Source of the DNA: Thermoplasmata archaeon
Lineage (GTDB): Archaea > Thermoplasmatota > Thermoplasmata > Lutacidiplasmatales > UBA184
Direction of reading: 5' to 3'
DNA length: 33,681 bases
Assembly: GCA_021826685.1 (NCBI GenBank)
Contig: JAKAYT010000013.1
Location: 1 to 33,681 of the forward strand
The notes beneath the pieces were generated by a model, which ran no database searches, was not told where the DNA came from, and saw nothing but the letters and a program-made list of their open reading frames with translations. Below, one piece after another: positions 2,191 to 23,269 of the stretch (its first letter is position 1; the number at the start of each line of letters is the position of its first letter). The translations under genes were made by a program, and so were the position numbers.

Positions 2191-2251
2191 CGTTCTCGCC
2201 GGGACCACCCCTCTCCCATAGAAGACGGGTTGGGAAGGATTGACTGAGTGC

Positions 2252-2257
2252 TTAACA
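2252..2257 (+). promoter_or_regulatory. TATA-like element of fhs
   Basis: TTAACA is centred about 27 bases before the ATG at 2282, the spacing expected when transcription starts at the start codon. There is no Shine-Dalgarno sequence, which fits a leaderless mRNA. The element lies in the 91-base divergent region shared with thrC. Confidence 0.4.
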
Positions 2258-2281
2258 GGCCGCCACCGCCTCTCGGTCTCG

Positions 2282-3898
2282 ATGGCGCTCAAGCCGATCC
2301 ATGAGGTGGCCGAGTCGCTAGGAATCCCCGAGGGGTCATGGATCCCGTATGGTCGCTCGATCGCGAAGGTCGACCCGGCCGCCGAGTCACGGCAGGCCGG
2401 TCGTTCGAACGGGCGCATCGTCTTAGTCACCGGAATGACACCGGGCCACGAAGGCGTCGGAAAGACGGTGACCACGTTGGGGCTCGTCGAAGGGCTCACG
2501 CGACGGGGCATTCGCGCGATCGCTCTTCTCCGTCAACCGTCTCTCGGCCCGGTGTTCGGGATCAAGGGTGGCGGCGCGGGAGGAGGCCGAGCGACCGTCG
2601 AACCTCAGGACGAAGTGAACCTTGGGCTCACCGGGGACATCGACGCCGTCACGAACGCGCACAATCTTCTCGCGGCCCTCATCGACAACCACCTCCATCA
2701 CGGCAACCCGCTGGGCATCGATCCGGCGACGATCGCATGGCCGCGCGCCCTCGACGTAGAGGACCGGGCCCTTCGGGACATCGAGGTCGGAGCCGGGCCC
2801 GGCAACGGGCCGGTGCGCCGGTCCTCGTTCGTGGTCACGGCCGCCTCCGAGATCATGGCGATCCTGGGACTCGCGCGCGATGCCGCCGACCTCAAGTCCC
2901 GCTTGGAACGGATCCGGGTCGGTCTCGATCGCACCGGTCGTGTCGTTCGCGCCGGGGACCTCTCGGCCGGAGGCTCGATGGCGGCCATCTTGCGGCGTGC
3001 CCGATGGCCCAATCTCCTCCAGACCTCCGAAGGGAGTCCCGTGCTCGTTCACGGGGGCCCGTTCGGTAACCTCTCCTACGGCACCACGACGCTCGCCTCG
3101 ATCGAGCTCGCTCGTCGACTGGCCGACGTGGTGGTCATCGAAGCCGGATTCGGATCCGACCTCGGTGGGGAAAAGTTCGTGGACATCGTCGCTCCGCAAA
3201 CCGGTGCGTTCCCTTCGGCGGCGGTGCTGGTCAGCAGCCTCCCGGCGCTGCACGGGCACGCGCCGGGAGCGGTCGGAGCCGGTTCGCTCGACGCGGGTCT
3301 GGAGAACCTCGACCAGCATATTCGGAACCTTCGATCCTTCGGAATGGACCCGGTGATTGCGCTCAACCGCTTCGCGAACGACGATCCCCGCGAGATAGCG
3401 ATGGTGCGCTCGTTCTGCGCCGGAGTTTCGGTCGCCATCGAGGAAGGGACCGGATTTTTGAACGGGGGTGCCGGGATGGAGGGAGTCGCGGAAGCGACCT
3501 TGACGGCGCTGTCCCGTGGCCAGACGGTACGACCGATCGTTAGTGGGGCGCAGCCACTACCGGAACAGGTCGACACGATCGTGCGGACATGCTACGCCGG
3601 AGACGGGGTCGACCTATCTCCCGAGGCAAGACGCGAGCTGGAGGACCCCTCGGCTCTAGAGACGGATCACGGACCGGTATGCGTGGCCAAGACGCCGCTC
3701 TCGCTGAGCGACGATCCGCATCGTTTGGGACGCCCTCGCGGTTACCGGGTGCATGTTCGCAGGTGGGTCCCGGCCAGTGGGGCCGGGTACACGGTCGCGC
3801 TGCTCGGCGAGATCCAGACCATGCCCGGACTGCCCACCGACCCCCGGGCCACCCGGATCACGGTCGACGAGCACGGGGAGCCTATCGGGGCTACCTGA
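2282..3898 (+). CDS. fhs: Formate-tetrahydrofolate ligase
   Basis: This enzyme makes 10-formyl-tetrahydrofolate from formate, ATP and tetrahydrofolate. The 538-residue protein is slightly shorter than the usual 555-560. The P-loop is GHEGVGKT at 55-62, followed by the family signature PSLGPVFGIKGGGAGGG, then NLGLTGDIDAVTNAHNL and the near-terminal GEIQTMPGLP. The P-loop reads PGHEGVGKT where most relatives have PTPAGEGKT, but the lysine and threonine are kept. A TTG 14 codons upstream could extend it; the ATG is preferred because of the family start and the TATA spacing. A methylenetetrahydrofolate-reductase-like gene at 20112-21107 may draw on the same one-carbon pool. Confidence 0.95.
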   Translation: MALKPIHEVAESLGIPEGSWIPYGRSIAKVDPAAESRQAGRSNGRIVLVTGMTPGHEGVGKTVTTLGLVEGLTRRGIRAIALLRQPSLGPVFGIKGGGAGGGRATVEPQDEVNLGLTGDIDAVTNAHNLLAALIDNHLHHGNPLGIDPATIAWPRALDVEDRALRDIEVGAGPGNGPVRRSSFVVTAASEIMAILGLARDAADLKSRLERIRVGLDRTGRVVRAGDLSAGGSMAAILRRARWPNLLQTSEGSPVLVHGGPFGNLSYGTTTLASIELARRLADVVVIEAGFGSDLGGEKFVDIVAPQTGAFPSAAVLVSSLPALHGHAPGAVGAGSLDAGLENLDQHIRNLRSFGMDPVIALNRFANDDPREIAMVRSFCAGVSVAIEEGTGFLNGGAGMEGVAEATLTALSRGQTVRPIVSGAQPLPEQVDTIVRTCYAGDGVDLSPEARRELEDPSALETDHGPVCVAKTPLSLSDDPHRLGRPRGYRVHVRRWVPASGAGYTVALLGEIQTMPGLPTDPRATRITVDEHGEPIGAT

Positions 3899-10795: not shown

Positions 10796-11671
10796 ATGAC
10801 CGCTCTTCTCCGCTCGATCGCCCAACGCTTCCCCGGAACCGAGACGATGGAGGGGGCCGGAGTCCGTCTCCGGCGGATGTTCGGTAACCGCCAGGTCCCG
10901 CTGTTCGACCCGTACCTTCTGCTGGACAACTTCGGCTCCTCGAACCCGGAGGACTACCTCGCGGGCTTTCCGTGGCACCCGCACCGGGGGATCGAAACGG
11001 TCACGTACATGCTCGAGGGCGAGGTCGCCCACGGCGACACGCTGGGGAACTCCGGCACGATCGGCCCGGGCGACGTCCAGTGGATGACCGCCGGTAGCGG
11101 GATCATCCACCAGGAGATGCCTCAGCGCTCGGAGGGACGGCTCTCCGGTTTCCAGCTGTGGGTCAATCTCCCCGCGAAGGAGAAGATGGCGGTCCCGGCG
11201 TACCGGGGGCTATCGGGCGCCGACCTCCCAATCGTTCCGTTGGAGCACGGTGGCAAGGTTCGGGTGATCGCGGGAACGTTCGACCGCGTCGTCGGACCGG
11301 TCCGCGGCCTTTCCGTCGATCCCACGTACCTCGACATCGACCTGCCGGCCCACGAGTCGATCGAGCTCCCCACCCCGCGCAGTCACACCGCCTTCTCTCA
11401 GGTGGTGAGCGGGTCCGGCTCGTTCGACGCGGCCCCGGGTCCCCGGGCCTCGCCGGGCGAGACGCTCCTGTACGGACCCGGCGAGCGCGTGCGGATCGCC
11501 GCCGGAGACGAGCCGCTTCGGTTCCTGTTCGTCACGGGGCGGCCGATCGGCGAGCCGGTCGCGTGGTACGGCCCGATCGTGATGAATCGCCCGGAGGAGC
11601 TGAACGAGGCGGCGCGCGAACTACAGACCGGCCAGTTCATCCGCCACCGCTCCCCGATCCTCGAGGAGTAA
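10796..11671 (+). CDS. Pirin family protein
   Basis: A 291-residue bicupin. The N-terminal cupin carries the metal site: FPWHPHRGIETVTY gives H61 and H63, and SGIIHQEMP gives H105 and E107, matching the His-His-His-Glu iron site of human pirin and the quercetinase-like E. coli YhhW. The C-terminal cupin (about 170-270) lacks such residues, as usual. Some pirins oxidise flavonols and others regulate metabolic enzymes or transcription, so the cellular role here is open. The last 35 bases overlap the end of lysK on the opposite strand; both reading frames look normal to the end. Confidence 0.92.
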   Translation: MTALLRSIAQRFPGTETMEGAGVRLRRMFGNRQVPLFDPYLLLDNFGSSNPEDYLAGFPWHPHRGIETVTYMLEGEVAHGDTLGNSGTIGPGDVQWMTAGSGIIHQEMPQRSEGRLSGFQLWVNLPAKEKMAVPAYRGLSGADLPIVPLEHGGKVRVIAGTFDRVVGPVRGLSVDPTYLDIDLPAHESIELPTPRSHTAFSQVVSGSGSFDAAPGPRASPGETLLYGPGERVRIAAGDEPLRFLFVTGRPIGEPVAWYGPIVMNRPEELNEAARELQTGQFIRHRSPILEE

Positions 11672-12695
11672 GGCCTTCGAGGAGCTGACGGAAGGCGACG
11701 CGGAGCACTTCCGCACTCGTGTTGAGGTCCGCGAGGTCGAGCGCCTCCTCGTCGGTGTGGTCGAGGTGGGCGTCCCCCGGCCCGTAGGCGGCGCCGCCGA
11801 GGCCCCATGCCGGGGCCACGATGTTGAGGTCCGACGTGCCGCCCTTGCGCCAGAGCGTCGGCCGCCCGCCCTGAGCTCGGATCCCGTCGACCAGCGCGCG
11901 GACCACCGGGTCCGAACGGCCGCTCTCGAACGGCTCGATGGAAGCGATCGTCTCTATGGAGTCGGCGGCTGTGAGAGGGGGCAGGGACGCCGCGACGCTC
12001 TCCACCGTTCGGCCGGGAGGGATCCGCAGGTCGACCACGACCTCCACCGATTCCCTTCCGGCGCTCTCGCCCGATCGGATCGCATCGACCTTGACGGTCA
12101 GGGAGTGGAAGCGATCGACCCCCGTGTCGGATAGCTCCCGCACCGCGCAGGCCCAGTCCATGGCCCGCTCGGTGGTCGACAGATCGGGGGCCGAGAGATG
12201 GCGACGTTCCCCGCGTATCCGTGCGCGAAGTCGGAGATCCCCCTTGTAGCCGATGGCGATGCCGTTCCAGCCGCTCGGTTCCCCGGCGATGACCGCCTCC
12301 GGCGCCAGCGAGGGGATCAGGTGCCGTGCGCCGCGGCTGTCCGACTCCTCGCCGACCGAAGCGACGACCACGAGCTCGCCGTGCGGAAGGACCTCGGGGC
12401 GGGCGAGCAGCGCGGAGAGGAGGGGTCCCTTCGCGTCGCACGCCCCGCGACCCAGGATGCGACTCCCGTCCCGGCGAACCGGGATCCGCCCGGGGACCGT
12501 ATCGATGTGTCCGAGGTAGACGATCTGCGGGCGCCCGCGGCCGCACCGTGCGACTCCGTTGCCGACCGCGTCGGTCTCGACCGCAAAGCCGAGGCGGGTA
12601 GCTACCCGGGCGAACGCGCGGACCCCGGCGGTCTCGTCCCCCGTCGGGCTGTACGCCTCGAGGAGGTCCGTGAGGAGAGCGGCCTCATCGGCCAT
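11637..12695 (-). CDS. lysK: [LysW]-lysine/ornithine hydrolase
   Basis: A 352-residue M20-family metallopeptidase that should cut the finished ornithine (or lysine) off the C-terminus of LysW, the last carrier-bound step. Metal-binding residues are visible: H63 and D65 in LGHIDTVPG, D87 in GRGACDAKG, and the E116-E117 pair in VGEESDSRG. Its ATG overlaps the end of lysJ by 11 bases, so it is the last gene of the operon. The final residues (GSGSGGG) are low complexity and lie where the gene overlaps the convergent pirin gene by 35 bases, so the tail may be under constraint from the other strand rather than functional. Confidence 0.9.
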   Translation of the reverse strand: MADEAALLTDLLEAYSPTGDETAGVRAFARVATRLGFAVETDAVGNGVARCGRGRPQIVYLGHIDTVPGRIPVRRDGSRILGRGACDAKGPLLSALLARPEVLPHGELVVVASVGEESDSRGARHLIPSLAPEAVIAGEPSGWNGIAIGYKGDLRLRARIRGERRHLSAPDLSTTERAMDWACAVRELSDTGVDRFHSLTVKVDAIRSGESAGRESVEVVVDLRIPPGRTVESVAASLPPLTAADSIETIASIEPFESGRSDPVVRALVDGIRAQGGRPTLWRKGGTSDLNIVAPAWGLGGAAYGPGDAHLDHTDEEALDLADLNTSAEVLRVAFRQLLEGLTPRGSGSGGG

Positions 12696-13845
12696 CGCGC
12701 AGGACCTCGTCGATCGTGGCGAGCGCCGAGTCCCAGTCCGCTTCGGCGATCGGGATCGGCGGCAGGAGCCGGATGACCTCAGGACCCGCCGCGCTGGCGA
12801 GATAACCCCGCCGGCGCAACTCCTCCAGGTAGGGTGCCGCCCGCTCCCGGAGCTCGACGCCGATCATCATCCCGAGCCCCCGTGCTTCGCGGATCTTGGG
12901 GTTCGCGAGCCCGCGTAGGCGCGCCAGCCCCGCGACCCCGAGGCGCTCGGCGCGCTCGTCGATCCGTTCGTTGACCAAGACGTCCAGTGCGGCCACGCCG
13001 GCGGCGCACGCGATCGGGTTCCCCCCGAACGTCGAGTGGAGCGTTCCTTGGAACTTCGCCTCGACGTCGGTCGTCGTGACCGTCGCGCCAATCGGAATGC
13101 CTCCCGCCAGCGACTTCGCGAGCGCGAGGATGTCGGGGTGGATCCCGTAGCGCTCGAACGCCCATCGGCGACCGGTTCGGCCCATGCCGGTCTGGATCTC
13201 GTCGAAGATGAGCTTCGCCCCGTGGGCGTCGCACGCGGCCCGGGCCGCCCGAACGAACTCAGGGTCGGCCACGTGGATGCCGCCCTCGCCCTGGACGAGC
13301 TCCAGGATCACGCCGGCGGTCCGGTCCGTGACCGTAGCTTCCAGCTTGGCGATGTCGTTCAAGGGCACGTGCGCGAACCCCGGCACGAGGGGCTCGAACG
13401 GCCGGCGCAGGTCCGAGCGCCAGGTCGCGGACAGCGCGCCCATCGTGCGCCCGTGGAAGCCGCGCATCATCGCGACGAACTCCGTCCGGCCGGTGGCCGA
13501 TCGCGCGAGCTTGATCGCCGTCTCCATCGCCTCGGTCCCGGAGTTCGATAGGAACACGCGCGCGAGGCGCGGGGGCATCAGGCTGAGCAATCGGTCGACG
13601 AAGTCGATACGCGGTCGGGTCGTGTAGCCGGAGCTGACGAAGACGAGCTCGCCGGCCTGGCGCTGGATGGCCTCGACGATGCGCGGATGGGAGTGCCCCA
13701 GATTGGCGACGCCGAGGGAGGCCCCCAAATCGACGTACTTGCCTCCGGTCGCGTCCCAGACGTAGGCCCCCTCCCCGCGGACGATCGTCCGTCGAGCCAC
13801 TCCCGCGATGCCGAACTCCCCACGCGCGATCTCCGAGCCCATCAT
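12685..13845 (-). CDS. lysJ: [LysW]-aminoadipate/glutamate semialdehyde aminotransferase
   Basis: A 386-residue class-III PLP aminotransferase that converts the carrier-bound semialdehyde to an amine using glutamate. The PLP lysine is K244 in LALAKSLAGG; NSGTEAMETA (101-110) binds the cofactor phosphate, and IFDEIQTGMGRTG contains the PLP-contacting aspartate. Similarity is to LysJ/ArgD, and the LysW operon decides in favour of the carrier-bound substrate. Two adjacent ATGs (13845 and 13842) could start it; the first forms an ATGA overlap with the lysZ stop. The protein probably serves ornithine formation, and many archaeal homologues handle lysine intermediates as well. Confidence 0.92.
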   Translation of the reverse strand: MMGSEIARGEFGIAGVARRTIVRGEGAYVWDATGGKYVDLGASLGVANLGHSHPRIVEAIQRQAGELVFVSSGYTTRPRIDFVDRLLSLMPPRLARVFLSNSGTEAMETAIKLARSATGRTEFVAMMRGFHGRTMGALSATWRSDLRRPFEPLVPGFAHVPLNDIAKLEATVTDRTAGVILELVQGEGGIHVADPEFVRAARAACDAHGAKLIFDEIQTGMGRTGRRWAFERYGIHPDILALAKSLAGGIPIGATVTTTDVEAKFQGTLHSTFGGNPIACAAGVAALDVLVNERIDERAERLGVAGLARLRGLANPKIREARGLGMMIGVELRERAAPYLEELRRRGYLASAAGPEVIRLLPPIPIAEADWDSALATIDEVLRDGR

Positions 13846-14639
13846 ACGAACACGGTCCCCTGTCCGGCCAGGGCAGCCGCGACGGGCCGGGGGGTCGCCG
13901 ACGAGCCGATGACGGCGCTCCCGACCCCCGCGCGAACGGCCTCGATCGCGGCCCGGACCTTCTTGTGCATCCGTCCCCGCGCAGCGGTCATCACCTCGGC
14001 CTCGTTCGAGGCGTCGACCCGAGGGATAAGGCTCCGCGGGTCGTCCGCATCGCGCAGGACGCCCTCCACGTTCGTCAGCAGCACTAGCCCGTCCGCGTGG
14101 AGCGCCGCCGCGACGCGCGCGGCCACGCGGTCGGCGTCGACGTTCACGACCTCTCCTTCGGGCGTAAGGGCCGGGGGGCCGATGACCGGAACGTAACCGC
14201 CCTGTCGCAACCGTTCGATCAGGTCGGTCCGGACCGACTCGAGCGAGCCGGAGAGGTCGGCGGCCACCCGGACGACGCGCCCATCTTGGACCGCGCGCGC
14301 TCCTTCCTTGCGCCGTGCGGTCAGGAGACCGCCGTCGACGCCCGAGAGACCCACGGCCGGCACGTGGCGGGTCGCGAGCTCCCGGACGATTCGGGTCTGG
14401 ACGCTCCCGGCGAGCGCAAGGATCACCACTTCCAGGTGGGCCGCGTCCGTGTGCCGGGAGACGGTGCCACTGGGGCTGGTGTAATATCGGGGGGGCCGAC
14501 CGAGCGCCGTGCCCAGGCGATCGATCTCTTCGGATCCGCCGTGGACGAGGACGTACTCGGACGGACGCAGAGCTACCTCGTCCAGCACGGGAGCGAGGCT
14601 GTTCCCGCTCGCTCCTCCGACCTTCACGACGATCGTCAT
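13842..14639 (-). CDS. lysZ: [LysW]-aminoadipate/glutamate kinase
   Basis: A 265-residue amino-acid kinase, homologous to N-acetylglutamate kinase, that phosphorylates the side-chain carboxylate of the LysW-bound substrate. Visible family strings are MTIVVKVGGASG at the start, VLVHGGSEEID for the substrate, and VNVDADRVAARVAAALHADGLVLLTNVEGV for the nucleotide region. Near the end, GRMHKKVRAAIEAVRAG matches the conserved kinase segment that contacts ATP. The frame is open 25 codons further upstream, into lysY, but homology begins at the ATG at 14639, which leaves a five-base gap after the lysY stop. Confidence 0.92.
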   Translation of the reverse strand: MTIVVKVGGASGNSLAPVLDEVALRPSEYVLVHGGSEEIDRLGTALGRPPRYYTSPSGTVSRHTDAAHLEVVILALAGSVQTRIVRELATRHVPAVGLSGVDGGLLTARRKEGARAVQDGRVVRVAADLSGSLESVRTDLIERLRQGGYVPVIGPPALTPEGEVVNVDADRVAARVAAALHADGLVLLTNVEGVLRDADDPRSLIPRVDASNEAEVMTAARGRMHKKVRAAIEAVRAGVGSAVIGSSATPRPVAAALAGQGTVFV

Positions 14640-14644
14640 GCGCC

Positions 14645-15673
14645 CTACGCCGGGTGAAGGCCCGCGAACTCGAGACCTCGCGTCTCGGGGAACCCGACAG
14701 CGATGTTGAGGCACTGGAGGGCGTTGCCGGCGGCGCCCTTCATGAGGTTGTCAATGGCGCTCAGGGCGACCACGCGTCCTGCACGGGGGTCCAGGGCGAA
14801 CCCGACGTCCGCGTAGTTCGACCCGTACAGGACCTTCGGATCCGGGGCGCGGTGGATCCCGTCCGGGTCGTGGACGATGCGCACGAACGGCTCGTTCGCG
14901 TACGCGGCCCGATAGGCGCGCCAGAGCTGCTTGTCGTCGGTCGGACCGGCGCCGACGGCGTGGCAGGTCGAAAGCACGCCCCGCACCGAACCGACCGCAT
15001 GCGCGCTCATCGCGATCCGCAGGCCCGTCTCCTGCTCGATCTCGGCGGTGTGGCGGTGGCCGACCGGAGCGTACGGGCGGATCGCACCGCTGCGCTCGGG
15101 ATGGGCGGCGGCCGGACCGGCATCCGCACCCCCCGCGGAGGAGCCGCTCTTCGCGTCGACGATGACCGGGCGCTTCGCGTCGATCAGTTGCGCGTCGACC
15201 AAGGGGCGCAACGCCAGGATCGAGGCGATCGCGATGCACCCGGGATTCGCGATGAGCCGCGCGCCCCGCAGCGCTTCGCGATGCAGCTCGGGAACCCCAT
15301 AGACGCTCCGGCGGAGGAGTTCGGGGTGCGGATGCTCGACGCCGTAGAACTCGGGGTACTGGGCCGGGTCCTTGAGGCGGTGGTCGGCCGAGAGATCCAC
15401 GACCCAACCGCCGGACGCGAGCCATTCGGGCATCCGGCCCATGGCCGAACGATGCGGAACGGCGATGAACGTGACATCCGCGGGCTCGACCTTCTCGTGC
15501 GGCACGAACACAAGCTCGGTGCGCTTGCGAAGGTTCGGGTGCACCCGGCCGACGGCCTGGCCGGCGTGACTGTCGGAACTGACCTGCACGACCTCGAGGT
15601 CCGGATGCTGCAGGGCAAGGCGTAGGAGCTCGCCGCCGACATACCCCGAAGCGCCGACGATCGCGGTCTTCAT
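14645..15673 (-). CDS. lysY: [LysW]-aminoadipate/glutamate phosphate reductase
   Basis: A 342-residue NADPH-dependent semialdehyde dehydrogenase of the ArgC/LysY family that reduces the acyl phosphate made by LysZ. The nucleotide-binding GASGYVGG lies at residues 7-14, the nucleophile is C146 in IANPGCIA, and a histidine-rich GHRHTAEIEQE string near the middle belongs to the catalytic domain. Length and motif order are normal. The ATG overlaps the lysX stop as ATGA, so the two are translationally coupled. Confidence 0.93.
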   Translation of the reverse strand: MKTAIVGASGYVGGELLRLALQHPDLEVVQVSSDSHAGQAVGRVHPNLRKRTELVFVPHEKVEPADVTFIAVPHRSAMGRMPEWLASGGWVVDLSADHRLKDPAQYPEFYGVEHPHPELLRRSVYGVPELHREALRGARLIANPGCIAIASILALRPLVDAQLIDAKRPVIVDAKSGSSAGGADAGPAAAHPERSGAIRPYAPVGHRHTAEIEQETGLRIAMSAHAVGSVRGVLSTCHAVGAGPTDDKQLWRAYRAAYANEPFVRIVHDPDGIHRAPDPKVLYGSNYADVGFALDPRAGRVVALSAIDNLMKGAAGNALQCLNIAVGFPETRGLEFAGLHPA

Positions 15674-16524
15674 GGCTGCGCCGCCTCGAGGGCGAAGGAG
15701 AGGATCCGGTCGGCGATGTCGACCTGGGTCGTCGTTCCCTGGAGAGCCTTGAACTCCGGGGTAGGATTGACCTCGTGGACGACGTACCCCTCTGGCCCCT
15801 CCATCACATCGACCGCGAGAACGCCGCCGCCCATCGCCCGAGCCGCGCGCCTCGCGAGCTCGGAGAGCTCGCCCGAGAGGGGCAGGGCTTCGGTCGTGGC
15901 TCCTCGAGCCGCGTTCGTCCGCCAGTGCGTCGAACGGCGGACCATCCCCGCAATCGGCTCGTCGCCCACGACCAGGATGCGCAGGTCCCGCTCGGGCTTG
16001 GGGACGTGCTCCTGAACGTAGAAGATCGACTGGGTTGGAGACGGTAGCGCGCTCTTGTGTTCGAGGATTTGCTCCGCTTCCTCGCGGTCATGCACCCGCG
16101 CGATGAGGCGACCCCATGAACCGATCGGAGGCTTGAGGACCGCCGGATAACCGATCTCGTCCAGCGCGCGAAGCGCGGCCTCTTCGGTGAGGGCCACGAT
16201 CGTCCGAGGGGTGGGGATACCGGCCCGACTCAGCGCGAGGGAGCCGAGGATCTTGTCCCCGGCACGTTCGGTGACTTCGGCATTGTTCACCGTCCTGACG
16301 CCCTCGTTCTCGAGGCAGCGCAGCGCGTAGAGCCCCCGGATGTGGCTCACCGACCGGTTGAGCACGAGATCGATCGGGGGGGGCGCACCGCCGATCGGGA
16401 ACAGCATCCCCTCGTCGTGCATCGGCTCGAGGGAGATCCCCCGGGCGCTCGCCGCAGCGAGCAGCCACTTTTCCTCGGGTCTCAGGATCGTGTAGAAGAG
16501 GCCGAGGCGGATGGGCTCACTCAC
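15670..16524 (-). CDS. lysX: LysW ligase (LysX/ArgX-type ATP-grasp)
   Basis: A 284-residue ATP-grasp ligase that joins glutamate or 2-aminoadipate through its amino group to the C-terminal glutamate of LysW. ATP-grasp strings are visible: YPAVLKPPIGSWGR for phosphate binding, YVQEHVPKPERDLRILVVGD, and the metal-binding E251 and N253 in HEVNPTPEF. The GTG start at 16524 overlaps lysW by eight bases. Whether it is LysX (aminoadipate), ArgX (glutamate) or bifunctional cannot be settled by eye. The operon holds argG and argH and no homocitrate-pathway genes, which favours glutamate and arginine. Confidence 0.9.
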   Translation of the reverse strand: MSEPIRLGLFYTILRPEEKWLLAAASARGISLEPMHDEGMLFPIGGAPPPIDLVLNRSVSHIRGLYALRCLENEGVRTVNNAEVTERAGDKILGSLALSRAGIPTPRTIVALTEEAALRALDEIGYPAVLKPPIGSWGRLIARVHDREEAEQILEHKSALPSPTQSIFYVQEHVPKPERDLRILVVGDEPIAGMVRRSTHWRTNAARGATTEALPLSGELSELARRAARAMGGGVLAVDVMEGPEGYVVHEVNPTPEFKALQGTTTQVDIADRILSFALEAAQP

Positions 16525-16678
16525 CCCAGTCTTCCGCTTCCTTCGGGGCGCGTTCGACGGTGATCGGTGCGGTGGCCAGAACCTCGAGCTCCGTCCCGCA
16601 GTCCCGGCAGGGGAAGATTTCGCCGGCGATCATCGCACCACAGTCGACCTGGGCATCGCATTCCGGACAGTTGGTCAT
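16517..16678 (-). CDS. lysW: LysW amino-group carrier protein
   Basis: This 53-residue acidic protein carries the growing amino acid. It starts MTNCPECDAQ and ends in EDWGE, the invariant C-terminus whose final glutamate is loaded by LysX. Zinc is expected at C4, C7, C24 and C27 (CPEC and CRDC), the zinc-ribbon knuckles of the family; C13 is extra. The chain passes from LysX through LysZ, LysY, LysJ and LysK while the carrier keeps the substrate's amino group protected and supplies a charged docking surface. It overlaps argH by four bases (ATGA) and lysX by eight, so the carrier and its loading enzyme are translated together. Confidence 0.96.
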   Translation of the reverse strand: MTNCPECDAQVDCGAMIAGEIFPCRDCGTELEVLATAPITVERAPKEAEDWGE

Positions 16679-18093
16679 TTTCGTTCCTCGTTCAACAGCT
16701 CCTCAATGAGCTCGACGCGGTGGCCGAGCGAGGAGAGGGAAGGGCCATGGGCTGCGAGGATCTCGCGGGCCCGGTCGAGCTGGACCCCCACCGAGGTCGG
16801 AGAAGGGCCGCCCGGGGTGGCACGGCGTTCGAGGGCATGCGCGGGATCGAAGAGCGAATCGGCAGCCGACCGCAGTGCCGGGAGAGCGCGGCGAGCACTC
16901 GCGGGCCCGATCGAGCCCTCGGTCTCGCGAACATAGGCCCCGACGGCTTCGTGGGCCTCGCGGAACGGCGTCCCTTGCCGGACGAGTTCCTCGGCGAGGT
17001 CGGTGGCCAAGAGCGCCGGGTCCGAGGCGGCCGCCGCCATGCGCGTGCGGTCGAATGCGAGGTCCTCCAAGGCAGAAGCGAGCGCAGCGAGCGTGAGGTC
17101 GATCGTCCGTACCGCATCCCGCACCGGAGCCTTGTCCTCCTGGAGATCGCGGTCGTAGGCGAGAGGGATCCCCTTGAGCGTCCCGAGCAGGGTGACGAGG
17201 TCCCCCGTCACGCGAGCGGCCTTGGCCCGGGCGAGCTCCGCGACGTCGGCGTTCCTCTTCTGCGGCATCAGGCTGCTGCCGGAGCCCACGCGCTCGCCCG
17301 CGCGGGCGAAGCCGAATTCAGCGGTCGTCCATAGGACCCACTCCTCGCCGAGAACGCTCAGGTGCGTCGCGAGAAGAGCGAGGTCGAAGAGCAGCTCGGC
17401 AAACGGATCTCGGTCGCTCACCGCGTCCAGCGAGTTCTCGAACGCGTGGTCAAACCCGAGACGCCGGGCGACCCAAGCGGGATCGATCGGCAGCGTGGAG
17501 CCGGCGAGCGCCCCCGCTCCAAGCGGGGAGACGTTCGCGCGCCGCTCCGTGGCGAGCAGGCGGTCGAGGTCCCGCTCGAGGCGCCAGAAGTGGGCGAGGA
17601 GGTGGTGGGCGAGGCTAACGGGCTGCGCCCGCTGGAGGTGCGTGTACCCCGGCAAAAGGGTCCCTTGCTCGCCCGCCGCGTGGTCGACGAGTATCCGCTG
17701 GAACGACTCGAGCAGCTGGACGGTCCCGTAGACGACCTCGCGAAGGTACAAGCGCTCGTCGAGCGCAATCTGATCGTTGCGGCTCCGAGCCGTGTGAAGG
17801 CGGCCGCCGGCCGGCCCGATGAGTTGGGTCAGGCGGACCTCGATGTTGGTGTGAACGTCCTCAAGATCATCGCGCCACGGGAACGAGCCGTGGGCGATCT
17901 CCCGGTGGATCGCCCGAAGGCCCCCGATGATACGGCGCGCGTCATCCTTCGAGACCAGGCCCACCCGCTCCAGCATCTCGGTGTGGACGATGCTGCCGGC
18001 GAGATCGACTCGTGCCAGCGCGCGGTCGACGTCGAGCGAACGCAGGAACTCGCTGCCGCCGGTTCGGACGTAGCTCGGCGATGTGGACGCCAT
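16675..18093 (-). CDS. argH: Argininosuccinate lyase
   Basis: A 472-residue member of the fumarase/aspartase superfamily that splits argininosuccinate into arginine and fumarate. The signature SGSSLMPQKRN occupies about 271-281, the catalytic-loop serines among S271-S274; H152 in GYTHLQRAQP is the expected general acid/base, and TARSRNDQIA (101-110) binds substrate. A TTG five codons upstream could extend it, but the ATG at 18093 is preferred and leaves 27 bases after argG. The enzyme acts as a cytoplasmic tetramer. Its stop overlaps lysW, placing the last arginine step in one transcript with the carrier pathway that makes ornithine. Confidence 0.95.
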   Translation of the reverse strand: MASTSPSYVRTGGSEFLRSLDVDRALARVDLAGSIVHTEMLERVGLVSKDDARRIIGGLRAIHREIAHGSFPWRDDLEDVHTNIEVRLTQLIGPAGGRLHTARSRNDQIALDERLYLREVVYGTVQLLESFQRILVDHAAGEQGTLLPGYTHLQRAQPVSLAHHLLAHFWRLERDLDRLLATERRANVSPLGAGALAGSTLPIDPAWVARRLGFDHAFENSLDAVSDRDPFAELLFDLALLATHLSVLGEEWVLWTTAEFGFARAGERVGSGSSLMPQKRNADVAELARAKAARVTGDLVTLLGTLKGIPLAYDRDLQEDKAPVRDAVRTIDLTLAALASALEDLAFDRTRMAAAASDPALLATDLAEELVRQGTPFREAHEAVGAYVRETEGSIGPASARRALPALRSAADSLFDPAHALERRATPGGPSPTSVGVQLDRAREILAAHGPSLSSLGHRVELIEELLNEERK

Positions 18094-18120
18094 GGTGGGA
18101 ACGGTCAACGTGCCTCGCTC

Positions 18121-19365
18121 TCAGCGCGATGTCCGGCGTTGGCGAGGAACGGTCGCGGTCGCAGGGCGGGACTTCTCCTCCCCGACGGCCGCCCAGGTGC
18201 GGCTCGGGAGCCCCCAGACGTAGATGAAACCCTCCGCGCTCGACGCGTTGAACCGGTCGCCTTCGGAGTAGGTGGCGAGATCGTGGCGGTAGAGGGCGTA
18301 GGGGCTCGTGCGGCCCGAGACGCGGGATGAGCCCTTGTAGAGCTTCATCGCCACCTCGCCGGTCACCCGCTCCTGGGTCGACGCGACGAAGGCGTCGATG
18401 GCCGTGCGCAAGGGCGTGTACCAGAGGCCGTCGTAGATCAGCTGGGAGTAGCGGAGCTCACCCACGCGTTTGAAGTCGAGAAGATCCCGGGGAAGGACCA
18501 ACGCCTCGAGCGCCTGATGCGCGGCGAGAAGGACCGTGGCCGCGGGACACTCGTACACCTCGCGCGACTTGATCCCGACCAGGCGAGATTCGAGGTGGTC
18601 GATCCGGCCAACCCCATGCGTACCGGCCGTGCGGTTGAGCTGCTCGATGATCGTACGAGGGCCCATCCGCACTCCGTTGAGGTGGGTTGGCGCCCCATGC
18701 TCAAACCCGATACGGACGTGCTCGGGCTCGTCGGGTGCGGTGAGTGGAGACTGCGTCCAGGCGTACACCTCTTCGGGAGGTTCGAGCGCGGGATCCTCGA
18801 GAACCCCGCACTCGACCGAGCGACCCCAGAGGTTCTCGTCCGTGCTGTACGGGGAGGCCTTCTTCGCGGTGACCGGAACGTGGTGGGCCGCCGCGTAGGC
18901 GATCTCCTCGTCGCGAGTCATACCCCACTCGCGGGCGGGTGCAATGACCTTGAGTTCGGGAGCAAGGGCAGTGGTGGAGAGGTCGAAACGGACCTGGTCG
19001 TTCCCCTTGCCCGTACAGCCGTGGGCGATGTGGGTCGCGCCCTCCTTGCGGGCCACCGCGACGAGGTGCTTACCGATCAGCGGGCGAGCGAGGGCGGTGC
19101 TCAGGGGGTAGACCCCCTCGTAGATCGCGTTCGCGGCGATCGCGGGGAGGAGATAGTCCCGGGCGAACTCCTCGCGCGCGTCCACGATGTAGGCGCGGCG
19201 AGCCCCGGAGGCAAGGGCCTTCTTGCGGACGGCGTGCAGGTCGACGGGCTGCCCGACGTGCACCGTTAGGGCGATGACCTCGAAACCGCGCTCCTTGAGC
19301 CACGGGATAGCGACAGAAGTATCCAGTCCTCCCGAATACGCGAGGACAACTTTAGGGGAACTCAT
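18121..19365 (-). CDS. argG: Argininosuccinate synthase
   Basis: A 414-residue enzyme that condenses citrulline and aspartate with ATP. The N-type PP-loop AYSGGLDTS lies at residues 9-17; HGCTGKGNDQVRF and SPYSTDENLWGRS are conserved substrate and nucleotide strings. The frame is open 66 codons upstream, across the regulator's promoter; the ATG at 19365 is chosen because homology begins at MSSPKVVLAYSGG. The last 15 or so residues are basic and probably disordered. As first gene of the operon it lies 99 bases from the divergent ACT-domain regulator, with the large palindrome between them. Confidence 0.95.
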   Translation of the reverse strand: MSSPKVVLAYSGGLDTSVAIPWLKERGFEVIALTVHVGQPVDLHAVRKKALASGARRAYIVDAREEFARDYLLPAIAANAIYEGVYPLSTALARPLIGKHLVAVARKEGATHIAHGCTGKGNDQVRFDLSTTALAPELKVIAPAREWGMTRDEEIAYAAAHHVPVTAKKASPYSTDENLWGRSVECGVLEDPALEPPEEVYAWTQSPLTAPDEPEHVRIGFEHGAPTHLNGVRMGPRTIIEQLNRTAGTHGVGRIDHLESRLVGIKSREVYECPAATVLLAAHQALEALVLPRDLLDFKRVGELRYSQLIYDGLWYTPLRTAIDAFVASTQERVTGEVAMKLYKGSSRVSGRTSPYALYRHDLATYSEGDRFNASSAEGFIYVWGLPSRTWAAVGEEKSRPATATVPRQRRTSR

Positions 19366-19431
19366 CTCGATCGATCTTGAGCAGGGAAGAGTACCACCGT
19401 CAGGTATTTGTACCGTGTGACCATCTTTGAA

Positions 19432-19459
19432 CAAAAACGGACACATGTGTCTGTTTTTG
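19432..19459. promoter_or_regulatory. 28-bp palindromic operator candidate
   Basis: Half-sites CAAAAACGGACACA and TGTGTCTGTTTTTG are mirror images with one mismatch pair (19439 with 19452). The perfect core is GACACATGTGTC (19440-19451), flanked by A- and T-tracts. TTTGAACA also occurs as a direct repeat at 19426-19433 and 19456-19463. The palindrome ends six bases before the ATG of the ACT-domain regulator and overlaps its presumed core promoter; the argG start is 66 bases away on the other side. I see no second copy in the window. It is probably bound by the adjacent regulator, controlling itself and the arginine operon. Confidence 0.7.
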
Positions 19460-19464
19460 AACAT

Positions 19465-20115
19465 ATGGCTTCGGAGGACCGGTCGACGGCCCAGGACGTC
19501 CGCGCATGGATCGACGGACACCCCGTCGTCGTGGAAGCTTTGCGGCTGGGAATCGCGAACCACTCCGCCCTGGCTCGCCGGATCGCGGAAGACCTGGGCT
19601 CGAGCCGCCTACCGGCGATCCGGGCGGCGTGCCGTCGCTACCCGCCGCGGGGAGATCAAGGGTTCCAAGAGCGCTCGCTCACCCGGTTGCTGGCCAAGAG
19701 CCGCATCGAGACCCGGACGAAGGTCGCTGCGGTCACCGTCACCGAGGGCGTGGACGTCCTGCAACGTTTGGGCGACATCGTGGAGGAGATCCTGGACGAG
19801 AACCAGATCTGCCGCCTCATCCAGGTCTCTCGCGGCACGGTGATCGTTGTCGACGAGGATTCCGTGGGTCGGTTCGTCAAACGCCTTCGCGAGAACCAAA
19901 TCCTCTCGATCCACCGGGGGCTCGTCGAACTCGCCGTCACGAGCCCGGTGAGCATCGAGGCCACTACCGGCCTTCTCGCCCGGCTCGCCTCGGTCCTCTC
20001 CTCGCGCGGGATCAACATCGTCGAGGCGATGAGCTGCTACACTGACACGATATTCGTCCTGGACCGTGAGGACATGGCGAACGCGGTAGATGCGCTCGCG
20101 AACGTCCTCGCCTAG
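19465..20115 (+). CDS. ACT-domain regulator of amino-acid metabolism (COG2150-like)
   Basis: A 216-residue protein. Residues about 16-58 look like a helix-turn-helix (VVVEALRLGIANHSALARRI, then SSRLPAIRAACRRY). Two ACT-like halves follow: about 84-140 and a clear C-terminal one at 150-214 (LLARLASVLSSRGINIVEAMSCYTDTIFVLD). ACT domains bind amino acids, so this is probably an amino-acid-responsive DNA-binding protein of the archaeal COG2150 type, whose members are predicted rather than proven regulators. A TTG start at 19408 would add 19 residues translated from the palindrome, so the ATG at 19465 is preferred. Arginine or lysine would be the natural ligand. It overlaps the convergent reductase-like gene by four bases. 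Confidence 0.85.
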   Translation: MASEDRSTAQDVRAWIDGHPVVVEALRLGIANHSALARRIAEDLGSSRLPAIRAACRRYPPRGDQGFQERSLTRLLAKSRIETRTKVAAVTVTEGVDVLQRLGDIVEEILDENQICRLIQVSRGTVIVVDEDSVGRFVKRLRENQILSIHRGLVELAVTSPVSIEATTGLLARLASVLSSRGINIVEAMSCYTDTIFVLDREDMANAVDALANVLA

Positions 20116-21107
20116 CCGGCCGCGCTCGGGACGTGCGCCGGGGCGGGCAGGGCCCGCGCGATCGCTTCGAGGATTGGAACGACGAGGGGGAGGTGCCGGG
20201 CGGAGATCTGTTCCACGTTGACCCCTAGGAGGAGCTGGGGGGCCCTAGCCGCCACGCCCCGCCGGATTTGTTCGTAGACCTGAACAGCTCGCGATGTCGA
20301 CGCCTCGGCCCCGGCGGTCCCGCCCCACTCGGCCGCGGCGAGCACCGCATCCTCGACGGCGAGAGGAACCTCGGCACCGAGCCAACGAACGAATTCCACG
20401 TCCGCCTCGTCGGCGAGAGGAGCTAGGCTGAGGAGCACGGGCGCGGGCGCAATCGCCTCTGCCGCGCAGCGCTCGCCGTACGCGACGAGGGTCGCGAGCG
20501 CAGGTTCGGCGTCGTAAAGGATCTGGGTCGTGAAGAAGGTGCACCCGGCCTTCGTTTTCGCGAGCATCCGATCCGCTTCGCCCATGCGCTGCGGAATCGC
20601 GACGTTCCCGATCCCACCCCCCGCGCGGGCGAAGACCGGTTCGCAGATGCGGTTCGCCTCGATCACGGGGGGTCCGGGATAGGGGATGAAGCGCGAGTTA
20701 CCGCCGATCAGGACGGCGTGCCGGACGCCGAGGCCGGTCGTCTCCTCGGCCCATCGCCGTACATGCTCGGCGTCCGTGAGATGCGCGACGACCTTGTTGA
20801 CGATGCCGAGCCGGCCGGTGCGCTCGGCGATCCGACGGGTGTAGAGCCGGGGATCGGACGTACGGTAGTACGGACGCCCGTCATGATTCTCATCGAGAAG
20901 CTCGGGCACGTTGATCGCGTCGATACGCGGGATCTGCTCGACGACGCGTGCGACGGCCTCGAACTGGCGATCCGCCGACGCAGGAGATAGGCGCGCGGAC
21001 GGGGGAACGGGCTCGAAGAAGAGCGGAGCGTGCACGAAGGCGGATCGGACGTGGGAAGTCATCGGGACATTCCTCGATCGGCGCGGCAAGTCGTGCAGAT
21101 CGCTCAT
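20112..21107 (-). CDS. Methylenetetrahydrofolate reductase-like protein
   Basis: A 331-residue protein with the TIM-barrel layout of the MetF family. FFEPVPPSA at the start stands where the family has the catalytic glutamate region, AINVPELLDENHDGRPYY follows strand two, HAVLIGGNSR resembles the strand that contacts flavin, and KAGCTFFTTQILYDAE corresponds to the family's conserved ITQ-containing strand. It may interconvert methylene- and methyl-folate or a related pterin; similarity is partial, so the substrate is uncertain. An ATG at 21062 is an alternative start; 21107 is kept because a TATA-like element (CATGTAAGA, about 21130-21138) lies 27 bases upstream. The fhs gene in this window suggests an active folate one-carbon pool. 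Confidence 0.7.
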   Translation of the reverse strand: MSDLHDLPRRSRNVPMTSHVRSAFVHAPLFFEPVPPSARLSPASADRQFEAVARVVEQIPRIDAINVPELLDENHDGRPYYRTSDPRLYTRRIAERTGRLGIVNKVVAHLTDAEHVRRWAEETTGLGVRHAVLIGGNSRFIPYPGPPVIEANRICEPVFARAGGGIGNVAIPQRMGEADRMLAKTKAGCTFFTTQILYDAEPALATLVAYGERCAAEAIAPAPVLLSLAPLADEADVEFVRWLGAEVPLAVEDAVLAAAEWGGTAGAEASTSRAVQVYEQIRRGVAARAPQLLLGVNVEQISARHLPLVVPILEAIARALPAPAHVPSAAG

Positions 21108-22318: not shown

Positions 22319-23269
22319 ATGGCCGACGCGATCGTGGTTGAGGGCCTGACCAAGAACTACGGTAGCCTCGCCGCGATCGACAATATCAGTTTCCGCGTGC
22401 CCCCCGGAAGCGTCTTTGCGTTTCTCGGCCCGAACGGTGCCGGCAAGACTACCACCACCGAGATCCTCGAAGGGCTACGCGCTCGGTCGAAGGGAAGCGT
22501 GCGGGTGCTCGGGCTGGACCCGTGGGGTGAGGGGCGCCCGCTTCACCGGCAGATTGGCGTCATCCCGCAGGACTTCCGTTTCTTCGAGAAGATCACGCCC
22601 CGCGAGTCGATCGATTACTATAGCACCCTGTTCGGAACTCACCCGGACCCCGCCGCGCTGTTGGAGCGGGTGAAGCTCTCGGACAAGGCGAACTCCCGCT
22701 TCGACACCCTGAGCGGGGGGCAGAAGCAGAAGCTCGGGCTCGCGCTTTCGTTGGTCAACGATCCCCGCATCTGCTTTCTGGATGAGCCGACGACCGGACT
22801 CGACCCCACCGCCCGCCGAGCAATCTGGGACGTCGTCCGGGAACTACGCAGGGAGGGTCGGACGGTCTTCCTTACGACCCACTATCTCGAGGAGGCCGAG
22901 ATCCTCGCGGACCGCGTCGCGATCATCAACCACGGACAGATCGTCGCGGCCGGATCCCCCGCCGAAATCATCGACCGGCTGGGCGGTCCGGCTCGCCTGA
23001 GGATCGTCGCAGGCTCGGACGTCGCCGATTTCGTCCGCTCTCGTTTCCCGAACGAGGTCCGACGGGAAGGGGACCATATCGACGTCGTGTTGCGCGATCG
23101 CGAGGATGCGCTCGCCATATTGGAGGCGGTCCAGGCGAGCCGCCTCGCCTGGACCGGCTTCACCACGGTACGCGACACGCTCGAGGACGTATTCGTGCGA
23201 CTGGTCGGTCGGATGGATGACGGAGTCCTGAAGTCCTCGGACGGAACCGCGGCGGGGGCGAGCACATGA
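22319..23269 (+). CDS. ABC exporter ATP-binding subunit
   Basis: A 316-residue ATPase with a full set of canonical motifs: Walker A GPNGAGKT (37-44), Q-loop glutamine Q84 in VIPQDFRFF, signature LSGGQ (131-135), Walker B ICFLDE (151-156) and the switch histidine in TTHYLEEAE. It belongs to the CcmA/NatA-like exporters. The C-terminal 90 residues form the usual accessory domain. The open frame continues upstream but is proline/arginine-rich and not conserved in character; the ATG at 22319 fits both homology and promoter. ATGA overlap couples it to the permease. Confidence 0.93.
   Translation: MADAIVVEGLTKNYGSLAAIDNISFRVPPGSVFAFLGPNGAGKTTTTEILEGLRARSKGSVRVLGLDPWGEGRPLHRQIGVIPQDFRFFEKITPRESIDYYSTLFGTHPDPAALLERVKLSDKANSRFDTLSGGQKQKLGLALSLVNDPRICFLDEPTTGLDPTARRAIWDVVRELRREGRTVFLTTHYLEEAEILADRVAIINHGQIVAAGSPAEIIDRLGGPARLRIVAGSDVADFVRSRFPNEVRREGDHIDVVLRDREDALAILEAVQASRLAWTGFTTVRDTLEDVFVRLVGRMDDGVLKSSDGTAAGAST

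Follow-up and report, generated by a model that had tools for sequence, protein, structure and literature searches.

Between argG, the first gene of an arginine operon, and a divergently encoded gene for an ACT-domain protein, a contig of a Thermoplasmata archaeon (JAKAYT010000013.1) carries a large palindrome. This locus, analysed in a window of 33,681 nucleotides (the whole stretch of DNA studied), raises the question of which unit in the roughly 100 bp separating the two start codons acts as an operator, on which gene and by which protein. The region was found to hold a conserved element of constant spacing, which recurs at arginine promoters and is linked to the gene of a candidate regulator. 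The element is likely an operator for the DUF7523-ACT protein, lying in the position of an activator for argG and in a blocking position for the protein's own gene.

The conserved unit between argG and the ACT gene

A 28-bp palindrome with one mismatched pair, framed by a direct repeat, had been described here as an operator by a first-pass annotation made from sequence. Both features are present. The palindrome occupies 19432-19459 (CAAAAACGGACACA/TGTGTCTGTTTTTG, 13 of 14 complementary pairs), its right edge 5 bp short of the ACT start codon (ATG at 19465), and the repeat is TTTGAACA, at 19426-19433 and 19456-19463. The two copies form the end of a longer direct repeat of 18 bp, 78% identical and spaced by exactly 30 bp. 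The palindrome also stands out as described, since none of such quality was obtained in 60 first-order shuffles of the window. Under the criterion of 14-bp arms and 13 or more pairs, a second palindrome exists in the window, at 23127-23154 (13/14 pairs), which is GC-rich and lies within the coding sequence of an ATP-binding cassette (ABC) transporter ATPase. When the mismatched pair was left open and up to three mismatches were allowed, the pattern was matched at a single place in the 1.39-Mb genome of the archaeon.

Conservation was followed in an alignment of 27 argG/ACT intergenic regions. One region at a contig edge without upstream DNA (L026) and one duplicate (L001, of L002) were left out, L034 was placed by eye, and L116 and L108 are not independent of L032 and L033, respectively. 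Orthologues of the ACT protein are present in the genus, and argG is divergently adjacent in all 26 loci with a readable upstream side, the window and L032 included; in three of these (L010, L015 and L020) argG runs off the contig. The palindrome fails this comparison. Its symmetry is 13/14 in the near-identical L032 (a public contig of Thermoplasmata archaeon isolate YP1.bin82, with a regulator 99% identical to the ACT protein of the window), and the other 25 of the 26 aligned relatives keep 4-10 of 13 or 14 pairs. The 28-bp palindrome was rejected as the functional unit because its symmetry is not conserved.

A different unit in the same bases is nevertheless conserved. Boxes of the form YGACC, GGACA, GGGCA, TGTCC (inverted) and GGACA follow one another at about one helical turn, together with one TATA-like box. 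Paired up, the boxes give two imperfect palindromes in tandem, each of 16 bp and of the form TGTCC-N6-GGACA; in most cases a middle half-site lies in phase between them. In the window, the features are as follows.

19407-19412, no strand assigned: single conserved TATA-like box, here TTTGTA; most relatives have TTTATA, read as TATAAAT on the argG strand (alignment columns 12-17)
19418-19433, plus strand: site I, TGACCATCTTTGAACA, promoter-proximal and weaker (from the 27 aligned regions)
19439-19443, plus strand: middle half-site, on the same helical phase as site I and site II; its sequence is GGACA here and mostly GGGCA elsewhere in the genus (alignment columns 44-48)
19448-19463, plus strand: site II, TGTCTGTTTTTGAACA, distal to argG and 30 bp from site I (consensus TGTCC-N6-GGACA)
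19432-19459, no strand assigned: the reported palindrome, whose symmetry is particular to one lineage and arises from the middle half-site together with site II (its left half) and the A/T flanks

Site II is stronger than site I in most relatives. With spacings of 28 to 32 bp allowed, the best pair was 30 bp apart in 24 of the 26 regions scanned by script and 29 bp apart in L004 and L005. Paired scores in these regions were 14-18 of 20, a level that 17 of 5200 shuffled versions of these regions attained; the weakest against their own shuffles were L022 (9/200) and L003 (3/200). The middle half-site is not kept in L033 and was not seen in family f5 (the f numbers denote families). One genome, G022, has two argG/ACT pairs (L014 and L079), each with a site of its own; that of the second locus, which is outside the alignment, is a perfect TGTCC-N6-GGACA.

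In L033, the distance from the element to the ACT start exceeds the usual one by 13-15 bp, with the 30-bp spacing still held and with a perfect TGACC-N6-GGTCA as site I. The element is thus separate from the start codon, which argues for a DNA-binding site. An RNA hairpin in the 5′ leader of the ACT mRNA would be the corresponding alternative, as GGRCA-N4-TGTCC could pair and the element stands just before the start codon in the genus. This candidate was rejected on its negligible consensus fold (-0.7 kcal/mol, covariation term 0, though one of the four predicted pairs has a single two-sided change). The 28-bp pairing is moreover lost in 25 of the 26 relatives, and the 30-bp spacing and the position upstream of the argG TATA box in f5 suit DNA, so that a hairpin is very improbable.

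A palindrome that arose by chance and has no role is exceedingly improbable. The confinement of the full 28-bp symmetry to one lineage would fit such an origin; the shuffles, the conservation of the half-sites in the genus and their enrichment in other families stand against it. Chance is refuted for the half-sites and possible for the extra A/T arms alone.

Promoter geometry and direction of control

The palindrome had been placed in the core promoter of the ACT gene. The conserved TATA-like box lies further left, outside the palindrome, and adjoins the first copy of the direct repeat. What stood of the operator proposal is a conserved regulatory element of the argG/ACT pair, with the ACT protein as its obvious candidate binder; the palindrome as the unit did not stand, and rather than the ACT promoter alone the element probably also serves argG, and argG first.

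Two lines of evidence bear on this assignment. In 26 loci, L033 included, about 35-43 bp separate the TATA-like box from the argG start (late alignment starts were subtracted by hand), whereas the distance from the box to the ACT start is 74 bp in L033 against 51-62 bp in the others. In f5, where the ACT gene is not divergent from argG, the argG promoter consists of a strong TGTC-N8-GACA, 31 bp, a weak TGTT-N8-GTCA and a TATA-like box, a layout present in all six loci that hold argG among the eight fetched. This order is shared by f1 when its argG strand is followed: a strong site, 30 bp, a weak site with GTCA at its end, a few bp, TATA. Site I of the window, which reads TGTT-N8-GTCA a few bp upstream of the TATA box, matches the weak site of f5. 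Because the layout returns in f5 and the TATA distance was held to argG while the ACT start moved, the sites and the TATA box probably belong primarily to argG. In f8, a motif match of at least 8/10 was found about 43-46 bp before the ACT gene in 8 of 13 loci and abuts the ACT TATA box in many, which points to autoregulation of the ACT gene there too.

In the proposed operator, the DUF7523-ACT protein of the divergent gene would bind five half-sites about one helical turn apart, which make up two dimer sites with a spacing of 30 bp (19418-19433 and 19448-19463) and the middle half-site. The dimer on site I would be placed a few bp upstream of the argG TATA box, and site II, 30 bp further back, would serve as a helper. 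The same protein-DNA complex would cover the stretch from the TATA box to the ACT start and so hold down the protein's own expression. Binding would be tuned by an amino acid sensed by the ACT domain, for which the gene neighbourhood suggests a member of the arginine pathway; in the simplest form, arginine would turn activation off.

Such an arrangement resembles that of known archaeal regulators, among them LysM, which acts on the related LysW lysine pathway. For Ptr2, LysM and Ss-LrpB, PMC2995911 describes a site a few bp upstream of the transcription factor B recognition element (BRE)/TATA box with further sites behind it, a response of LysM to lysine, and a possible simultaneous road-block by Ptr2 of its own gene. 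An amino-acid-type C-terminal domain in the regulator and a dimer site upstream of the TATA box with more sites behind are shared with these systems. In contrast to them, the ACT protein matches DUF7523 and ACT_7 and not Lrp/AsnC, the half-site is another one, and the system is tied to arginine genes. Since the order of sites upstream of the BRE/TATA box is the same, an activator that limits its own synthesis is preferred, with a repressor as the main rival. We put activation at slightly better than even and consider repression a weaker, still substantial, prospect.

As a repressor, the same protein on the same operator would cover both promoters in its arginine-bound form and shut off both the operon and the gene that encodes it. 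Biosynthetic operons are most commonly controlled by feedback repression, the sites lie within a shared intergenic region of about 100 bp beside the only conserved TATA box, and the ACT promoters of f8 have the site abutting the TATA box. In f1 and f5, however, all of the sites lie on the upstream side of the argG TATA box and their spacing is constrained, as in archaeal activators; this form of control is rather unlikely. Repression by Pyrococcus furiosus LrpA and Archaeoglobus fulgidus MDR1 involves binding that adjoins the TATA box on its downstream side, according to PMC2995911. Relative to the ACT gene, site I is likewise on the downstream side of the TATA box; unlike in those systems, the same complex here would face argG from the upstream side.

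The candidate binding protein and the spread of the system in the class

The first-pass annotation had labelled the ACT protein COG2150-type, a predicted regulator. The ACT protein matches Pfam DUF7523 (PF24367) at its N-terminus with 31.1 bits and ACT_7 (PF13840) at its C-terminus with 31.4 bits, the cut-offs being 27 bits; the DUF7523 match spans the first half of the profile only (1-78 of 158). All 27 aligned family members match both profiles at an expectation value (E) up to 1. Helix-turn-helix (HTH) and RAM profiles of Lrp/AsnC are absent from the six Pfam matches of the window protein (E up to 1), and Lrp/AsnC profiles are not among the 25 most frequently matched families listed for the 27 members. 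The N-terminal domain was modelled with four predicted helices in residues 8-57 at a predicted local distance difference test (pLDDT) score of 82. A model of the whole protein, made with three sequences, reached a mean pLDDT of 51, and its fold matches were not usable. A sequence search of the PDB at E up to 1 gave three matches with E between 0.005 and 0.09, in which YdjB and aspartokinases were matched in their ACT regions, and a plasmid search with the ACT protein gave no match.

Bacterial ArgR controls arginine operons through tandem imperfect palindromes (ARG boxes), often with its own gene included. Tandem imperfect palindromes at an arginine operon are common to both. Unlike in ArgR, the ArgR DNA-binding profile (PF01316) is touched by one of the 27 members, at E 0.054, and the site spacing is 30 bp here; the ArgR C-terminal profile is not among the 25 families listed.

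The ACT protein family was found at E up to 1e-10 in 273 of 400 sampled genomes of the class and in 62 of 104 genera. Arginine genes lie near the ACT gene in 36 of 40 loci picked by a strong ACT match alone, two of the other four being cut by contig ends; families with weaker ACT matches (such as f9, f15, f19, f20 and f31) are outside this sample. Gene order differs between families: argG and ACT are divergent in f1, f25 and f26, the order is argD-ACT in most f8 loci and in f22, ACT faces argH-argG in f5, and argD-ACT-argG was found in f11, in two loci picked because argG was near. Presence of argG follows that of the family. Of 21 genomes with an ACT-family match, 20 yielded argG; among the 30 lacking one, none did, save for a doubtful match of 31% identity in G042. 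Many of these genomes are incomplete, and the lack of a match rests on a profile search in 20 of the 30 and only on a less sensitive single-sequence search in 10.

Outside f1, motif matches of at least 8/10 were found in 40 of 67 regions upstream of ACT, argG or argC (5.2 expected from shuffles) and matches of at least 9/10 in 18 (0.4 expected). Random coding stretches of 250 bp reached 8/10 in 5.8% of cases and 9/10 in none of 1295. The motif had been fixed after f1, L029, L030 and L033 were inspected; with the early-inspected loci left out, the counts are 32 of 54 (4.3 expected) and 14 of 54 (0.4 expected). Relative to all other positions in these loci, 9/10 sites show an enrichment of about 29-fold (18 in 14,059 positions vs 21 in 484,076), and kinship within families makes these enrichment counts optimistic and the p-values an overstatement of the evidence. 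The tandem design recurs as well. Among argG promoters outside the paralogue group described below, 36 of 39 have a site of at least 8/10, and over these 36 a second site scores best at an offset of 30 bp (mean score 3.69 vs 2.56, SD 0.36, over all offsets). An offset of 30 or 31 ranks first in f1, f5, f11, f22, f26 and f32 (one promoter each in f11 and f32), tied second in f29 and third in f25; f8 and f30 differ.

Conceivably, the site is occupied by another transcription factor, for example of Lrp type, and the ACT protein does not itself bind DNA but acts as a co-regulator or regulates an enzyme. The N-terminal fold has no confident identity, and stand-alone RAM-domain proteins without a DNA-binding part exist (PMC2995911). 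On the other side, the conserved site precedes the ACT protein's own gene as well as pathway genes, the former in families with different gene orders, and the ACT gene recurs in arg clusters (only window genes were looked for, so that another recurring regulator would be missed). Binding by another factor is unlikely.

Several observations limit the case for the ACT protein as an arginine regulator acting through this site. The model of the N-terminal domain (about 60 residues) gives weak and mixed fold matches, none of them clear, which is no statement about a new fold. The 260 bp upstream of argF in the archaeon's own genome hold no 8/10 site. Clusters with diverged paralogues, in which two ACT genes surround arg genes, have no 9/10 site in 16 regions; they have six 8/10 matches, above the local background, and a degenerate version of the site may persist in them. 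Of the argG promoters in 13 genomes with paralogues only, 12 lack an 8/10 match and one (L129) has it.

Further observations concern these paralogues. In four loci of the same genus (L067-L070, in G018, G025, G010 and G024) the arg cluster is flanked by two diverged DUF7523-ACT genes and its argG is only 51-58% identical to that of the window; replacement of the whole arg cluster together with its regulator is possible. Diverged ACT-family matches in L077 and L078 (G026 and G005) and in G036:C153 fall within open frames of some 480-570 aa, each matched along two stretches, which suggests a longer protein with a duplicated N-terminal part. G026 carries such a frame, yet argG was not found there.

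Genomes were also scanned with a 46-bp sequence model of the element. In the window's own genome, at E up to 10, the only match was this site (150 of 152 first-look candidates were scored), and a wider regulon in that genome was rejected on the scale of this 46-bp model, one 16-bp site being too little sequence for a genome-wide search. Nor was an 8/10 site found in the 260 bp upstream of a second carbamoyltransferase, of carB or of a partial match resembling carB. Since coding DNA precedes carB, the stretch scanned there is not the carAB promoter. Over 21 other genomes, the argG/ACT promoter was matched in all nine with an orthologue (best E 1.3e-8 to 2.5e-5) and the second G022 copy at E 2.6e-5; nine of these ten sites had built the model, so their matches are expected by construction. 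Beyond these, the scan gave no comparable second site, only a partial match elsewhere in G002 (E 0.3) and echoes of these sites on the reverse strand. Nothing was matched at E up to 5 in any of six same-genus genomes carrying only diverged ACT paralogues. In the six genomes from other families, the model matched partially at three places, none of them in an arg cluster (E 0.11-0.41). Of five loci of the f1 genus outside the model, three were matched at E below 1e-6 and two weakly (L118, 0.026; L119, 0.057).

A DNA switch for a biosynthetic operon beside its regulator gene is of a known kind. The protein family, the half-site, the 30-bp tandem design by the TATA box and the class-wide spread appear undescribed in the literature searched. 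No paper was found there on COG2150 with an ACT domain, on DUF7523 or on a regulator of arginine synthesis in these archaea; the other searches gave nothing on the ACT protein in titles and the beginnings of abstracts, and in PMC10433800 regulator terms matched once, in the reference list. We give even weight to the broader proposal that the DUF7523-ACT proteins form a family of archaeal transcription factors, so far undescribed, which reads the 30-bp tandem TGTCC-N6-GGACA and regulates the arginine pathway in many Thermoplasmata lineages, one bound operator by a shared TATA box driving the arginine operon and blocking the regulator's own gene in the lineage of the window. The outcome is a named protein family with a defined half-site, a fixed spacing and predicted targets, which can be tested in vitro. 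DUF7523 was also matched over the cut-off in Haloferax volcanii, a relative in a genetically tractable archaeon, and in none of 13 other control genomes.

The arginine operon and neighbouring genes

The ACT gene had been described as divergent from an eight-gene arginine operon, and profile matches bear this out. The operon is of the LysW type, on the minus strand, in the order argG-argH-lysW-lysX-argC-argB-argD-argE.

19465-20115, plus strand: ACT-domain protein, 216 aa, presumed operator-binding regulator (DUF7523 and ACT_7)
18121-19365, minus strand: argG, argininosuccinate synthase, first gene of the divergent operon (TIGR00032, 531 bits)
16675-18108, minus strand: argH (TIGR00838, over cut-off)
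16517-16678, minus strand: lysW carrier protein, 53 aa (PF21344, 51.9 bits)
15670-16524, minus strand: lysX-type ligase (TIGR02144, over cut-off)
14645-15673, minus strand: argC-type reductase (TIGR01850, over cut-off)
13842-14714, minus strand: argB-type kinase, start position provisional (NF010659, over cut-off)
12685-13845, minus strand: argD-type aminotransferase (PF00202, 350 bits)
11637-12695, minus strand: argE/lysK-type hydrolase (TIGR01902, over cut-off)

Convergent to the ACT gene, and kept in L032, is a gene at 20112-21107 with weak matches to methylenetetrahydrofolate reductase. A formate-tetrahydrofolate ligase gene is located at 2240-3898 of the window.
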